Shown here: positions 27,110 to 31,330 of the stretch, piece by piece | Layout of the letters: every line of letters begins with the position of its first letter | How positions within the stretch are numbered: the first letter of the stretch is position 1 | DNA from: a virus | Direction: 5' to 3' (one strand) | Length of the DNA: 31,361 bases | Virus record (IMG/VR): IMGVR_UViG_3300045884_000047 | Coordinates: 1 to 31,361 of that record | Translations under genes and position numbers: made by a program | Notes under the pieces: model-generated | What the model was told of the DNA's origin: nothing | Seen by the model: only the letters and a program-made list of their open reading frames with translations | Databases searched by the model: none

Positions 27110-27288
27110 GGGTGGTCGCCCCGCAGGCCGTCCTCGTAGAGCCGCTGAGCGCGCCACCGCGGGGACACGACCTGCGGCGTCGGCGGGCGGTGGCGCCACC
27201 AGCACCACCACTGCGGCAGCGTGACGAAGCCGAAGGTCAGGACCGGACGCACGCACGCGACTAGGACGGGATGCACGCTCGTCGTCAT
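27106..27288 (-). CDS. Small Trp-rich basic protein
   Basis: 60 residues, MTTSVHPVLVACVRPVLTFG then FVTLPQWWCWWRHRPPTPQV. The N-terminal 30 residues are hydrophobic, then basic and Pro-rich. Start and stop overlap both neighbours (ATGA and GTGA). It is one of three small hydrophobic or Trp-rich proteins in a row. Function is unknown. Confidence 0.62.
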   Translation of the reverse strand: MTTSVHPVLVACVRPVLTFGFVTLPQWWCWWRHRPPTPQVVSPRWRAQRLYEDGLRGDHP

Positions 27289-27461
27289 TCGATGGACTCC
27301 TTTCCTCGCGCAGGCTCGCGGAGGCGCAGGCGCAGGCGCCCCTCCTCGTCGTGCTCAAAGACGATCAGGCCGCGCGCCTCGAGCGCCTCGAGATCGGCGA
27401 GCCGCACCTCGACCGTCTTGGCTGGCTTCGCCGGGTTCACGGAAGCCCGCTTATGCGACAT
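27285..27461 (-). CDS. Small charged protein starting in stop/start element A
   Basis: 58 residues, MSHKRASVNPAKPAKTVEVR, then LADLEALEARGLIVFEHDEE and a basic end. The ATG at 27459-27461 lies within the repeated ATGTCGCATAAG box; GGGAAAAAG upstream may be its ribosome site. It is helical and charged. Its stop overlaps the next ATG (ATGA). Function is unknown. Confidence 0.7.
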   Translation of the reverse strand: MSHKRASVNPAKPAKTVEVRLADLEALEARGLIVFEHDEEGRLRLRLREPARGKESIE

Positions 27462-27510
27462 CGGCCTTTTTCCCAGCCTTTGCCGGCACCTTCGGATCCG
27501 GATCCGGATC
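27450..27510 (-). repeat. Stop/start element, copy A
   Basis: On the minus strand: GATC-CG-GATC-CG-GATC, then a GCTGGGAAAAA purine segment, then ATGTCGCATAAG. It encodes the end of the upstream protein (DPDPDP...ADVA, stop TAA) and the start of the next (MSHK). First GATC to ATG is 49 bases. Same layout as copies B, C and D. Confidence 0.85.
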
Positions 27511-27762
27511 GGGGCTTTCGCCCAGCACGTCAAACCGTTCGACGTAGAGCTGAGAGGTGCCGATGGTGGCGGTGCAGCGAAAGATCCACCCGTCCACAAA
27601 CTGACAGACCCAGCGCACCTGTTCGCCGCCGTCGTATTCGTATTGGTCAGCCGGGAGGTAGCCCTTCATGAGGGACTGCATCGCCGCTTCAACGGACTCA
27701 GCGACGACCTCCGGCGGGCCGTCGTCACCGTAGCAGCCACCAACGTAGACGTGGCGGATCAT
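27451..27762 (-). CDS. Small phage protein ending in a DPDPDP tail
   Basis: 103 residues, MIRHVYVGGCYGDDGPPEVV. ATG at 27760-27762 overlaps the previous stop (TGATG). The core (VAESVEAAMQSLMKGYLPAD, WVCQFVDGWIFRCTATIG, SQLYVERFDV) looks like a compact alpha/beta protein. The C-terminal tail from the repeated element reads ESPDPDPDPKVPAKAG then KKADVA. Function is unknown. Confidence 0.75.
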   Translation of the reverse strand: MIRHVYVGGCYGDDGPPEVVAESVEAAMQSLMKGYLPADQYEYDGGEQVRWVCQFVDGWIFRCTATIGTSQLYVERFDVLGESPDPDPDPKVPAKAGKKADVA

Positions 27763-27926
27763 CACTGCACTCCGTGCTGCTCGACCAGCTCGCGCCCGTC
27801 GGCGCTCTGATGCACCACCACGACCGCCGCGCCCGCCTCGCGAATCAGCCGGGGCTGGCACCAGCAGTCCCGCCGCGAGGCGTGTTCCCGCAGGTCGTTG
27901 ACCGGCACGACATGCACATCGCGCAT
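27762..27926 (-). CDS. 54-residue conserved phage protein
   Basis: MRDVHVVPVNDLREHASRRD followed by CWCQPRLIREAGAAVVVVHQ and SADGRELVEQHGVQ. I recognise the pattern HVVP.NDL.EH....CWC.P.......V.VH.s.DGRE from many phages and prophages. The function is unknown. ATG has AAAGGGGAAAAG upstream. Stop and next start overlap (TGATG). Confidence 0.82.
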   Translation of the reverse strand: MRDVHVVPVNDLREHASRRDCWCQPRLIREAGAAVVVVHQSADGRELVEQHGVQ

Positions 27927-27938
27927 CGCTTTTCCCCT

Positions 27939-28676
27939 TTACGCGAGGACCGCCACGTCCTGCGGCAGTTCCGTGCGGAGCCAATCGCCTACGCGCCCGA
28001 TCGCCGTGAGCCGCCAGGCGCCGCCGTCGGCTTCAAAGAGCCCCACCTCTGGCCCGCCGCCCGCCTTCCCGTCCTTGACTCGCAGGACGAACAGCGAGGC
28101 CGGTTGGAGAATGTCGCGGAAGGTCCGAAACGGGCACAGCGTGACCGGGTTGGGGACGGCAACGTCGGAGACGAGCACCACGCCGGCGCGCGCCTGCACG
28201 ACCTGCGTCCTCCCGTCATCGAGCGCGGTCTTCACCAGCTCGGACTTCACGTTGCTCAACAGCGCCAGGAGCCGCGGCCGGTCGTTGTCGTCCGCGAACC
28301 GAACCTGCAGGCCGATGAGGAAGTTTTCGAGCGACATGAAGGTCCCGAGAAAGCCCTCCGTCAGGTCGAGCGCCTTCGCCGTCAGGTAGACCTCACGGCT
28401 CCGCGTGCGCGCCGCCAGGGCGCCGCCGATCGTGACCTGCGTCGCACCCGCGACATGGACGATCAGCTCCGGCAGGGTGAGCCCGTCCCGGTTCGCCTTG
28501 AGGTAATCGCGCAGCGCCCCGAGCGTGGTCACGTCGAGCGGGCGCGGCGTCGGCCCCGGCTTCACCAGCGCCGCCGGGTCCTCAACGGTCCAATCATTCG
28601 GGCGAAGCAGGTAGCCAGCCAGTTCAATTGGTCTACGGACCTGTTCGACGATTTGTTCGATCGCTGCGCCGTCCAT
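27939..28676 (-). CDS. Conserved phage protein of unknown function (~245 residues)
   Basis: 245 residues from the ATG; a GTG one codon earlier is equally possible, and AGGTGG lies upstream. It reads LGALRDYLKANRDGLTLPEL, IVHVAGATQVTIGGALA, FMSLENFLIGLQVRFADDND and LLALLSNVKSELVKTALDDG, then QVVQARAGV. This order of motifs matches a protein family seen in many siphoviruses of Gram-positive hosts, next to a protein like the following gene's product. The family's biochemical role is not known to me. Coupled to the upstream gene by TGATG. Confidence 0.8.
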   Translation of the reverse strand: MDGAAIEQIVEQVRRPIELAGYLLRPNDWTVEDPAALVKPGPTPRPLDVTTLGALRDYLKANRDGLTLPELIVHVAGATQVTIGGALAARTRSREVYLTAKALDLTEGFLGTFMSLENFLIGLQVRFADDNDRPRLLALLSNVKSELVKTALDDGRTQVVQARAGVVLVSDVAVPNPVTLCPFRTFRDILQPASLFVLRVKDGKAGGGPEVGLFEADGGAWRLTAIGRVGDWLRTELPQDVAVLA

Positions 28677-29029
28677 CACTCATCCACCTTTCGCGGAAAT
28701 GCCGCCGTCGGCGTGGGATTGTCGAAGAGGGGCGTTTGCCGCGGGTCGCTCTCGACCGCGATCAATTTGCCCTGATGCTTCCCCATGAATAGTTGGGTCG
28801 AAACGGTCATGATGCCGGCGAGCTTCGAGCTGCATTTCAGTTCCACGTCCGCCACGTCCCTGGCGCGGTTCGGTTTGAAGCTCACGGTGAACGTGACGAT
28901 CCGCTTCGCCGCAGGATCCGTGTTGGGGTCCGCGATGTTCGCGAGAATGCGCGTCAGCTCCGCCGCGAACAGTTCGGAGAGGGCGCCGCCGCCGATCGTC
29001 TCGAGGGTCACACCGGGCATCTTCGTCAT
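28676..29029 (-). CDS. Conserved phage protein, partner of the 245-residue gene
   Basis: 117 residues, MTKMPGVTLETIGGGALSEL. It has FAAELTRILANIADPNTDPA, AKRIVTFTVSFKPNRARDVA, VELKCSSKLAGI. The IADPNTDP...KR...F.P pattern is common in phage genes that sit beside the 245-residue family. The two probably work together, but the function is unknown. ATG overlaps the previous stop (ATGA). Confidence 0.82.
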   Translation of the reverse strand: MTKMPGVTLETIGGGALSELFAAELTRILANIADPNTDPAAKRIVTFTVSFKPNRARDVADVELKCSSKLAGIMTVSTQLFMGKHQGKLIAVESDPRQTPLFDNPTPTAAFPRKVDE

Positions 29030-29226
29030 CGTCGCTTCTCCTGCCGCACTTGGCCCTTCTTCACGAAACAGCCATCCGTACCGTGCTTACAGTGCTCGAG
29101 CTTCACTTCCGCCATCGGTTCGCCGAGCAGGGAAATCATCTTGCCGGTGAACACGCCGGACTCTCCGAAGTGCGGATGCTCCTGATCGCACACGTAGACG
29201 CGACCGATGCGTTCAGCGTCCGTCAC
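29026..29226 (-). CDS. Small hypothetical protein with His/Cys pairs
   Basis: 66 residues from a GTG with GGGAGG nine to ten bases upstream: MTDAERIGRVYVCDQEHPHF. It continues GESGVFTGKMISLLGEPMAE, then KLEHCKHGTDGCFVKKGQV. The Cys and His residues could bind a metal. The start overlaps the upstream gene by 14 bases. Function is unknown. Confidence 0.7.
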   Translation of the reverse strand: MTDAERIGRVYVCDQEHPHFGESGVFTGKMISLLGEPMAEVKLEHCKHGTDGCFVKKGQVRQEKRR

Positions 29227-29443
29227 GGTTCGCTGCCTCCCGCATCAGCGCCAGCAACGCCTCCGCGAGCGAGATGTCGCCGAGCGCGTCGGCGATCGCC
29301 GTGACGAACGGGTCACCCGCCAGGCCGAGGCGCTGCGCCTCGCGGTAGACGTGGACCTGCGCGCGCTCACGCTGCTCGCGGGTGAACGTCACGAGCTCGG
29401 CGTGAGTGGTCGGCAGGTCACCAGAACCGGGGTTATATGACAT
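29213..29443 (-). CDS. Small helical protein starting in stop/start element B
   Basis: 76 residues, MSYNPGSGDLPTTHAELVTF. I chose the ATG at 29441-29443, the counterpart of the MSHK starts of the other elements; a GTG four codons earlier would add MKRP. It is helical (TREQRERAQVHVYREAQRLG, ALGDISLAEALLALMREAAN). Function is unknown. Confidence 0.7.
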   Translation of the reverse strand: MSYNPGSGDLPTTHAELVTFTREQRERAQVHVYREAQRLGLAGDPFVTAIADALGDISLAEALLALMREAANRDGR

Positions 29444-29491
29444 GGGCCGTTTCACTCGTCATTTCGCCGGTTTCAGATCCGGATCCGGATC
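29432..29491 (-). repeat. Stop/start element, copy B
   Basis: GATC-CG-GATC-CG-GATC followed 48 bases after the first GATC by ATGTCATATAAC. This copy is the most diverged in the start box, and the upstream gene stops earlier within it (DPDPDLKPAK, TGA). The purine segment is GACGAGTGAAAC. Confidence 0.8.
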
Positions 29492-29941
29492 CACCAAGAC
29501 TTGCCGCTTAAGTAGTTCGACGGTGTTCTGGAACGCCTGCTCCAGCACGCTGATGTCGAGCTTCAGCGGGTAAACGTGGCCGCTGCGCGCCATGCCGCTC
29601 ATCACGCAGTCCGCGATGTAGTCGAGCACGTCGATCAGGTTCACGCCCTCTGGAATGCCTTCCGAGTCGTTCAGATGGTGACGATTCAGCTTCTTGTGCC
29701 GGTCCCACCATTCATGCTGTTTGAAGCCGGTCACAAAGTCGGCGTGGAACCCGTCGATGTCGGTCAGTTTGTCGGTGTCGTGGGCAAGCATCGCCTCAGC
29801 GATCTTGCGACTGAAAAACTGGTGTGCTTCGCGCACGTCGGCTATGTGCTGCTTTGAGCTGGCGAGTAGCGTTTCTTTCGACACCTTCGTGAAGTCGCAG
29901 GTTCGCGTGTCGGCGGTCGGACTGGTACGAATGCGAATCAT
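29459..29941 (-). CDS. Conserved phage protein with HD / HH motifs
   Basis: 160 residues, MIRIRTSPTADTRTCDFTKV. ATG overlaps the previous stop (ATGA). The middle reads IAEAMLAHDTDKLTDIDGFH, then HEWWDRHKKLNRHHLNDSEG and VNLIDVLDYIADCVMSGMAR. HD.DK, HEWW and NRHHL are strongly conserved in a phage family I recognise (related to DUF5662-like proteins). Several His/Asp residues could hold a metal, so a hydrolase is possible but unproven. It ends with the repeat-encoded tail VDPDPDLKPAK. Confidence 0.8.
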   Translation of the reverse strand: MIRIRTSPTADTRTCDFTKVSKETLLASSKQHIADVREAHQFFSRKIAEAMLAHDTDKLTDIDGFHADFVTGFKQHEWWDRHKKLNRHHLNDSEGIPEGVNLIDVLDYIADCVMSGMARSGHVYPLKLDISVLEQAFQNTVELLKRQVLVDPDPDLKPAK

Positions 29942-30171
29942 TGGCGCGCAGCCTCCCACTCGAGACATTCGGGACAGGTCACACTGGCCCGCACCATAAC
30001 GGGTACGGGGAGCGGGTTACTGACCGACTTACCGCACCGCTGACAGCGGACACGGTAGGTGTCGTCGGCTTGCACTTCGGCGGCTTGCTGCGCCGGCGAC
30101 AGGATCGCGTCGATGGCCCGCTGGGCCGCCAGGCCGCGACGGAGAAAGATCAACAACTGGTCATCCATCAT
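29938..30171 (-). CDS. Small zinc-ribbon protein
   Basis: 77 residues, MMDDQLLIFLRRGLAAQRAI. The C-terminal half has RCQRCGKSVSNPLPVPV and VTCPECLEWEAARQ, i.e. two CxxC pairs 21 residues apart. The N-terminal half is helical. Two ATGs in a row overlap the stop of the 14-residue frame of element C, so translation may be coupled to it. Function is unknown. Confidence 0.75.
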   Translation of the reverse strand: MMDDQLLIFLRRGLAAQRAIDAILSPAQQAAEVQADDTYRVRCQRCGKSVSNPLPVPVMVRASVTCPECLEWEAARQ

Positions 30172-30212
30172 GGTTGGCTCGCCAGGTGATCAGAAGGCGC
30201 CTTATGCGACAT
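30168..30212 (-). CDS. 14-residue leader-like frame from element C
   Basis: MSHKAPSDHLASQP, starting in the repeated ATGTCGCATAAG box with GGGGAGAC upstream. Its TGA overlaps the ATG of the next gene. It is too short to prove as a gene; it may be a leader that couples translation. Confidence 0.4.
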   Translation of the reverse strand: MSHKAPSDHLASQP

Positions 30213-30260
30213 GCGGCGTCTCCCCAGCATTTCGGCTGCGTTCAGATCCGGATCTGGATC
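30201..30260 (-). repeat. Stop/start element, copy C
   Basis: GATC-CA-GATC-CG-GATC, purine segment GCTGGGGAGAC, then ATGTCGCATAAG 48 bases after the first GATC. Here the upstream gene reads the GATC run in a different frame (SGSRSGSE, not DPDPD) but still uses the same TAA. Confidence 0.85.
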
Positions 30261-30507
30261 CGGAGGTCTGGGCCGGCATGATCGGGCGGCGCTCGAACAC
30301 GGCGATGATCGTTTCGTTCATTTCGTCGGGGCGCGCCATCAGCCGATGCACCTGGAACGTCAGCAAGGTGTAGCCGCGGGCGAAGTTCACGTTGATCACG
30401 CGCTCGAATTGCTCCGCCAACAGCCCCGATCCCGGCGTGACTTCGATCCCGTCCCGCCAGTTCTTCGACACTTCGGCGACGATAAAACGGGGTGGCTGGT
30501 CGGTCAC
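30202..30507 (-). CDS. Small hypothetical protein
   Basis: 101 residues from a GTG overlapping the previous stop (GTGA): MTDQPPRFIVAEVSKNWRDG. It has LLAEQFERVINVNFARGYTL and LTFQVHRLMARPDEMNETII. The alternating strands resemble small proteins with a ferredoxin-like or DUF4177-like pattern (G+.L...), a weak guess. The C-terminus ends GETPHVA from the repeat. Function is unknown. Confidence 0.72.
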   Translation of the reverse strand: MTDQPPRFIVAEVSKNWRDGIEVTPGSGLLAEQFERVINVNFARGYTLLTFQVHRLMARPDEMNETIIAVFERRPIMPAQTSGSRSGSERSRNAGETPHVA

Positions 30508-30740
30508 AGCACGAACCGCGGATCGAAGGCTTTTACCGCATCAACCGAGGGCGGCCGGTGTTCCTGCAGCTCTCGCTCGAATTCCGTGTTGTCGTTGGTG
30601 GTGCGAGTGGCGACCCGCGTGATCATCGCGATAATCGCGATGCCATTCGCCGTCGTGCCTTCCCAGACGCGGGCCGGCACCGTGCCACTCGGGGTCACGA
30701 CATCGATGATCCGCGTGGTCGATTCAAGGGTGATCTTCAT
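30504..30740 (-). CDS. Small hypothetical protein
   Basis: 78 residues, MKITLESTTRIIDVVTPSGT. It continues VPARVWEGTTANGIAIIAMI and TRVATRTTNDNTEFERELQE. It looks like a small beta protein with a helical C-terminus. This pattern (ARVWEG.T..G......I.....) occurs in short phage proteins. ATG overlaps the previous stop (ATGA). Function is unknown. Confidence 0.74.
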   Translation of the reverse strand: MKITLESTTRIIDVVTPSGTVPARVWEGTTANGIAIIAMITRVATRTTNDNTEFERELQEHRPPSVDAVKAFDPRFVL

Positions 30741-31234
30741 TGCGTGTTCCGCGCGATGAATTCCTTCATCGCTTTCACCATGTCTTGCCGCTGGGCCGAG
30801 CTGATGTAGAACATGGACCCGGCGTCGCCTTCGCCTTTCAGGCCCGTCTTGCCGTAGCTGAAGATCATCAGCGTGAACCCGAAGCCGTCCGGCACCTTCG
30901 GCTTGATGTCATTCGCGAGCTCGCGCATCGCGGACTCGACGCCGGCGTGCCGGACGTTGTAGCCGGACTGCTCGACGACTTGGGGTACCGGTTGTCCCAC
31001 CGTGGCGGCCGCGAACTGTTCGCATTCCGCCTTGAGCCGCTCGAGTTGTTCGACGCCCTCGTCTTCGCTCGTGGAATCGTCGCCAATGTTGGCGGCAATG
31101 TTCATCAGCATGGAATACGAGCCGGCGAAGAAAGCCCGCCGGCATTCCTCGACTTGCACTGGCGGGGCATCCTTGGGGATCACCCGCTGACGGTAGCTCT
31201 CGAAACTCTGCGCGACGCTCTCGACGGTGCTCAT
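30737..31234 (-). CDS. Hypothetical protein, mixed alpha/beta
   Basis: 165 residues, MSTVESVAQSFESYRQRVIP. ATG with ACAGGAG nine to ten bases upstream; it overlaps the stop of the 16-residue frame of element D. The N-terminal half is helical (ECRRAFFAGSYSMLMNIAAN). The C-terminal half (DGFGFTLMIFSYGKTGLKG, then MFYISSAQRQDMVKAMKEFI) is a beta-beta-alpha pattern also seen in phage accessory proteins. Function is unknown. Confidence 0.78.
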   Translation of the reverse strand: MSTVESVAQSFESYRQRVIPKDAPPVQVEECRRAFFAGSYSMLMNIAANIGDDSTSEDEGVEQLERLKAECEQFAAATVGQPVPQVVEQSGYNVRHAGVESAMRELANDIKPKVPDGFGFTLMIFSYGKTGLKGEGDAGSMFYISSAQRQDMVKAMKEFIARNTQ

Positions 31235-31281
31235 TGCAACGATTCTCCTGTTCGTCTAACGGAAGACGGCTTATGCGACAT
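31231..31281 (-). CDS. 16-residue leader-like frame from element D
   Basis: MSHKPSSVRRTGESLQ, starting in the repeated box with GCTGAGGAAAAC upstream. Its TGA overlaps the ATG of the next gene. Same arrangement as the 14-residue frame of element C; coding status is unproven. Confidence 0.4.
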   Translation of the reverse strand: MSHKPSSVRRTGESLQ

Positions 31282-31330
31282 GGGGGGTTTTCCTCAGCAA
31301 AGTGACGGCTTTCGGATCGCGATCACGATC
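31270..31330 (-). repeat. Stop/start element, copy D
   Basis: GATC-GT-GATC-GC-GATC, purine segment GCTGAGGAAAAC, then ATGTCGCATAAG 49 bases after the first GATC. The bases between the GATCs differ from copies A-C but the 6-bp pitch is kept. Confidence 0.85.

Follow-up and report, generated by a model that had tools for sequence, protein, structure and literature searches.

Among the described systems closest to the locus reported here are the dif modules of Acinetobacter plasmids, in which XerC/XerD sites (dif/pdif) with a variable 6-bp centre between two 11-bp arms (11-6-11) bound one to several accessory genes, and close relatives differ in gene content at the site. These modules are bounded by inversely oriented sites. 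In phages, the fast gain and loss of small accessory genes, often with borders between genes, is usually credited to random recombination and selection. Phage repeats linked to gene starts include the start-associated sequence (SAS) and extended SAS (ESAS) of Cluster K mycobacteriophages (PMC3203893) and of Cluster EF and EG Microbacterium phages. The focus of this study is a repeat present in four copies on the minus strand of a phage contig of 31,361 nucleotides (IMG/VR record IMGVR_UViG_3300045884_000047; contig G000, referred to as the window), which separates three blocks of accessory genes (A, B, and C) and contains a core resembling a dif site. The phage is known solely from metagenomes, and no named phage sharing DNA similarity with the window was found.

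The four minus-strand copies with a three-GATC spacing (GATC3), described in an initial annotation made from the sequence, were confirmed at 31270, 30201, 29432, and 27450 (copies 1 to 4, respectively), as was their division of the operon into blocks, which contain 3, 2, and 6 genes. The distance from the first GATC to ATG, given as 48 or 49 bases, was measured as 49, 48, 48, and 49 nt. On the other hand, the proposed length of 60-61 bp was too short: the element runs 17 nt beyond the ATGTCGCATAA box, and is 76-77 nt in each copy. The features of the copies are as follows.

31254..31330, minus strand: copy 1; GATC hairpin at 31330-31311, spacer, box ATGTCGCATAA at 31281-31271, centre GCCGTC, right arm TTCCGTTAGAC at 31264-31254
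30185..30260, minus strand: copy 2; hairpin at 30260-30241, box at 30212-30202, centre GGCGCC, right arm TTCTGATCACC at 30195-30185
29416..29491, minus strand: copy 3; hairpin at 29491-29472, degenerate box ATGTCATATAA at 29443-29433, centre CCCCGG, right arm TTCTGGTGACC at 29426-29416
27434..27510, minus strand: copy 4; hairpin at 27510-27491, box at 27461-27451, centre GCGGGC, right arm TTCCGTGAACC at 27444-27434

Mean pairwise identity among the four copies was 85% in the GATC3 hairpin, 46% in the 28-29-nt spacer, 91% in the box, 44% in the variable 6-nt centre, and 65% in the following 11-nt arm (TTCYGNNNACC). Since identity falls to background outside these conserved parts (29% in the flanks on either side; 28.5% for random 28-mers), the edges of the element are sharp, and conservation stopped exactly 28 nt past the A of ATG, at the end expected for a 28-bp core. 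The purine-rich stretch previously listed as a shared feature was among the least conserved parts. The GATC motif had six matches in the window (0.04 expected from shuffles), and self-alignment of the window gave E-values between copies as low as 5e-11.

All three reading frames were used by the upstream genes on entering the GATC repeat (GAT CCG in copies 4 and 3, GGA TCN in copies 2 and 1, and ATC CGG in a fifth copy from contig G001, described below), and these genes ended at differing points. Codon 6 after the box ATG was TCT, CCT, GGT, or GCT (S, P, G, and A, respectively), the third base always being T in genes with 75-83% G+C at third positions. Because the repeat is read in three frames and this T is kept while the residue varies, conservation is at the DNA level, and a conserved C-terminal (DPDPDP) or N-terminal (MSHK) peptide was ruled out. 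A genuine DNA-level element at the block boundaries is thus well supported.

G001 (IMG/VR 3300045967_000213) is nearly identical to the window: 19,529 bp matched with 14 mismatches, 13 of which were inside copy 3. It is without window positions 31066-29494 (1573 bp), a segment that takes in the whole of block B, most of block A, and the flank to the left of copy 3. In its copy at the 29432 site (the fifth, together with four in the window), the 25-nt hairpin region was identical, 11 of the next 22 nt differed, and the box reads ATGTCGCATAA, where copy 3 has ATGTCATATAA; from ATAACCCCGG onward, G001 was identical to the window save one later mismatch. This copy therefore combines a left half unlike that of copy 3 with the same right half, and the last differences lie within the box. 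Gene content changes at this site, because one end of the difference between G001 and the window falls inside the box; the change was observed in one comparison, as a single event.

The final 28 bp of the element have the 11-6-11 layout of bacterial dif sites. Using a matrix built solely from 34 published dif sites (PMC2731167, PMC3025954), the four copies ranked 1, 2, 3, and 4 among 62,668 positions of the window, and the left arm alone, an XerC-type arm ending in CATAA, also ranked 1-4. The sequence of this arm recurs as the C arm of a pdif-like site published for CP000134 (PMC10132070 Table 8), and 10 of its 11 positions agree with the dif arms found in Mesorhizobium loti and Desulfovibrio vulgaris. 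The right arm was among the best 0.16-0.48% of positions by score; this score peaked at a spacing of exactly 6 bp (near-best in one copy) and dropped within one or two bases. Only 7 of 1.35 million unrelated GC-rich phage positions reached the lowest of the four total scores, and among 100 Markov copies of the window, only one contained a position that did so.

We tentatively prefer the reading, at somewhat less than an even chance, that the repeat is a dif-like junction at which an Xer-type recombinase exchanges blocks of early accessory genes, and which also supplies start and stop codons. The working core would be the 28-bp site (left arm ATGTCGCATAA, variable 6-bp centre, and right arm TTCYGNNNACC), and an Xer-type tyrosine recombinase, from the host or phage, would cut at the boundary between the left arm and centre, with the hairpin or palindrome (GATCNNGATCNNGATC) acting as an accessory region at a fixed distance on the left-arm side. 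Since the left arm reads ATG...TAA, each joint would provide the start codon of the incoming block and close the preceding gene in one frame, such that blocks could be joined without breaking the operon. We infer the action of the recombinase at the site, the accessory role of the hairpin region, and the movement of blocks as units; the Xer-type agent is suggested by the resemblance described above.

Several results weigh against this reading. The right arm failed as an XerD arm: all copies have TTCCG or TTCTG in place of the TTATG core, which XerD arms almost invariably retain, and the matrix score was -0.6 to -3.5 bits, in comparison with at least 10 for real dif sites. Of 19 further strong left arms from GC-rich phages, 2 (one locus twice) were accompanied by an equally good right arm; right-arm evidence alone is therefore weak, the signal being mostly in the left arm. 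A strongly diverged XerD side does have a precedent, in the phage site of TLC-phi, which works (PMC5357621). The comparison with dif was made after the box had been seen, the four sites all have the same orientation, and the centres differ among copies, which hinders exchange in Xer systems. The initial annotation had proposed a module boundary used for recombination, for translation control, or as a transcription signal, at which the gene content of relatives would change. G001 offers one natural comparison that fits the recombination proposal at one end, inside the box, whereas the other end lies off-site, in codon 56 of gene 31234-30737. Furthermore, this was the only exchange seen, and both contigs are metagenome assemblies. 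Relaxed patterns did not point to a wider site family in other phages: they matched six unrelated contigs, while the reversed control pattern matched eight, and because the control matched no less often, these matches provide no evidence.

An only slightly less likely reading than the Xer-type junction is a start-associated expression element that heads each block and is exchanged by ordinary homologous recombination; the two are not exclusive because some copies also obtain start and stop codons from the box. A hairpin approximately 48 nt upstream, a Shine-Dalgarno (SD)-like stretch, and ATG would boost or regulate translation or shield mRNA 5' ends, with leader mini-open reading frames (mini-ORFs) being translationally coupled to the following gene, and the copies would spread with their blocks. 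Consistent with such a role, the position of ATG is fixed, the 48-49-nt spacing is held while the spacer sequence diverges, purine/SD-like stretches (GAGGA, GGGGAG, and GGGA) lie 7-10 nt before ATG in copies 1, 2, and 4, and actinobacteriophages are known to carry SAS/ESAS and similar repeats linked to starts; in Cluster O, a gene gain or loss is also flanked by direct repeats located at stop/start junctions. The box ATG, annotated as the start codon of the next frame, opened ORFs of a real size in copies 3 (76 codons) and 4 (58 codons), but mini-ORFs of only 16 and 14 codons in copies 1 and 2, respectively, both of which end exactly in ATGA overlaps.

31231..31281, minus strand: mini-ORF MSHKPSSVRRTGESLQ opened by the box of copy 1; its stop codon TGA and the ATG of the following gene overlap as ATGA
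30168..30212, minus strand: mini-ORF MSHKAPSDHLASQP opened by the box of copy 2; its stop codon TGA and the ATG of the following gene overlap as ATGA

That half of the boxes open such short ORFs argues against an expression element, as do the low conservation of the SD region relative to the box and the conservation that runs 28 nt into and past the start at positions irrelevant for the peptide. The stop codon of the previous gene, placed in three of the boxes by the initial annotation, was found in only two (copies 2 and 4). At 31270, the upstream gene, as read in G001, stops at a TGA within the GATC hairpin (31325-31323), and the frame ending in '..HVA' is merely a 50-codon open stretch without ATG; at 29432, the stop (TGA, 29461-29459) lies approximately 16 nt upstream of ATG. 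The evidence from folding was divided: the hairpin can form in every copy and two pairs in copy 1 were altered on both sides, which is suggestive but drawn from a small comparison of five rows, whereas shuffles folded about equally well as pieces of 90-141 nt (z -2.0 to +1.1).

The hairpin region may instead be the site of a phage DNA-binding regulator (of the stoperator or operator type) or belong to a promoter heading each transcription unit, which we consider unlikely. Three of the five copies (27450, 29432, and the G001 copy) carry GATCCGGATCCGGATC as a perfect 16-bp palindrome, CATAA and TATAAC resemble a -10 box within GC-rich DNA, and repeated stoperators and intergenic palindromes occur elsewhere among phages. 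However, copy 1 loses the DNA palindrome and retains the RNA hairpin via G-U pairing, only four copies exist, all at block boundaries, and neither sigma-70 promoters nor intrinsic terminators were found on the operon strand in this region. Remnants of an old tandem duplication, in which an ancestral gene end and start were copied repeatedly and their similarity partly survives with no present function, appear slightly less probable again. MSHK/MSYN and a serine at codon 7 are common to the ORFs that start in the box, and weak similarity exceeds 100 nt in some pairs, but similarity is at the background exactly from the edges of the element, with inner parts at 85-91%, and neither the three frames of the left half nor the constant third-base T of codon 6 with a changing residue is expected from such remnants.

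No further copies of the element were found in the other ~28 kb of the genome, including the rest of G001 and a third contig, G002 (IMG/VR 3300045977_000222), or in any of the relatives, including those of the portal protein and of the 246-aa gene; the initial annotation had named such an absence as one of two outcomes that would count against its reading. No Rfam family gave a significant match, and TGTCGCATAA-6-TTCTGTCAAC had no match as a chromosomal dif in GTDB genomes. Self-comparison of relatives G010-G013 for junction repeats (detailed in G012 only) revealed repeats near the block A homologue in G012, which were an ordinary gene duplication. Single sites of the form [A/C]TGTCGCATAA-6-TTCTGT[T/C]AAC[T/C] were present in three unrelated phage contigs (L004 2104, L099 8410, and L100 201); their right arms were far more XerD-like than those of the window and agreed with each other, with counts not above those of the control pattern. 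In one of the six contigs matched by the relaxed patterns (L101 13805-13832; IMGVR_UViG_3300011439_000390), the layout of the box and arm exactly overlapped the 3' terminus of a gene for a tyrosine recombinase, at a distance of 212 bp from the contig end and with GGATCCGG upstream; this is a lead only, and may represent either an attachment site of the phage or a coincidence.

The blocks separated by the copies, and the gene that follows copy 4, are as follows.

30202..31234, minus strand: block A, three genes
31234-30737, minus strand: block A gene, 165 aa; 46% homologue near the integrase gene in G012
30740-30504, minus strand: block A gene, 78 aa
30507-30202, minus strand: block A gene, 101 aa; ends in the box at 30201
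29459..30171, minus strand: block B, two genes
30171-29938, minus strand: block B gene, 77 aa; CxxC..CxxC, with weak zinc-ribbon matches only
ending at 29459, minus strand: block B gene, up to 169 aa
27451..29443, minus strand: block C, six genes
29443-29213 and 29226-29026, minus strand: first two block C genes
29029-28676, minus strand: block C gene, phrog_997 ('replication terminator')
28679-27939, minus strand: block C gene, phrog_1029
27926-27762 and 27762-27451, minus strand: block C genes, the latter ending in the box at 27450
27285..27461, minus strand: first gene after copy 4 (MSHKRASVNPAKP...), 58 aa; starts at the box ATG

The phrog_997 and phrog_1029 genes (window 29029-27939) adjoin in many of the relatives fetched for the latter, and are the sole widely conserved genes inside the array. 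In G012 (36646-38055), the homologue of gene 31234-30737 directly precedes a paralogous gene pair and the integrase gene. No block was met intact elsewhere; homologues of block C genes (the C3-C4 pair and C5) and of A1 were found without the element.

The window belongs to a high-GC, podovirus-type phage with matches to portal, tail, major head, and terminase families, and its portal protein showed a best identity of ~45% to the nearest named phages. The small accessory genes lie on the minus strand upstream of the structural genes, with the repeat copies inside that run, downstream of genes resembling a replication initiator and an excisionase (weak matches in both cases). G002 was identical to the window from 27882 down, the array being outside its coverage. 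G002 49747-49873 and G001 1-127 overlap by 127 identical bases, such that joining both contigs would give a circle of approximately 59.5 kb. Two proteins of the phage also favour the Xer-type reading. One is a canonical tyrosine recombinase (G002 41116-42555). The other, from G001, is a diverged integrase-like protein of 475 aa (L091 3757-5184, minus strand; phrog_1, E 1e-8; no Pfam hit), in which the catalytic arginine/histidine positions seem altered by eye, and which contains a helix-turn-helix-like insert (EIWQHPMQTVASRYDVSGSYLSRVCRMLHIPRPPVGYW). G002 also carries giant paralogous ORFs (2893 and 2018 aa; L093-L095, 23456-32137 and 42809-48865), with identities of 97.9% across 3.8 kb and 79.6% across 1.9 kb, the second being without part of the first; they represent a recent large duplication or the co-assembly of two strains.

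A comparison with known systems places the repeat among several of them. As in integron cassettes (attC), a recombination site would end each block, but the window is without the R''/R' pair (RYYYAAC...GTTRRRY): by inspection, a GTTRRRY-like string was seen in the copy at 31254-31330 only, without a partner, and no integron integrase was found, the phage integrase scoring 19.7 bits against an integron-integrase model cut-off of 265. Gene 14 of Corndog (Cluster O) has a short direct repeat at a gene junction, similarly tied to gain or loss of the enclosed gene; however, that repeat is 17 bp, concerns one gene, is single-copy in relatives, and has no reported hairpin or dif-like core. The initial annotation had likened the copies to start-associated repeats of mycobacteriophages, which is fair as an analogy: SAS/ESAS are also linked to starts in the non-structural region and have an upstream inverted repeat, for which the GATC3 hairpin of all five copies lies farther upstream than that of ESAS. 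The analogy does not extend to the motif, its position, or its copy number. SAS is a 13-bp motif overlapping the ribosome-binding site 3-7 bp before the start, in 11-19 copies across a cluster, whereas the box is itself the start codon in four copies of one phage, and the 28 nt before ATG were just 46% identical. The attachment sites of integrative mobile elements exploiting Xer (TLC-phi, CTX-phi, and VGJ-phi) are phage-borne and dif-like with a good XerC side, as observed here, but integrate a whole phage into the chromosome, whereas those in the window divide one operon. The closest parallel is with dif modules: layout, variable centre, left arm, bounded accessory genes, and content differing between close relatives at the site are all shared, whereas in the window the XerD arm is degenerate (TTCYG, not TTATG), the sites are directly repeated, no module was found in differing contexts, a conserved hairpin is added 48 nt upstream of the core, and the carrier is a tailed phage. 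That this phage bears a cassette array, in which Xer-type recombination at directly repeated dif-like sites with a hairpin adds, removes, or swaps early accessory blocks, is a possibility that we regard as doubtful. If true, the repeat would be both a recombination site and a translation joint, with a mechanism directly testable through Xer mutants, and would constitute a dedicated phage cassette slot comparable to the dif modules of plasmids.

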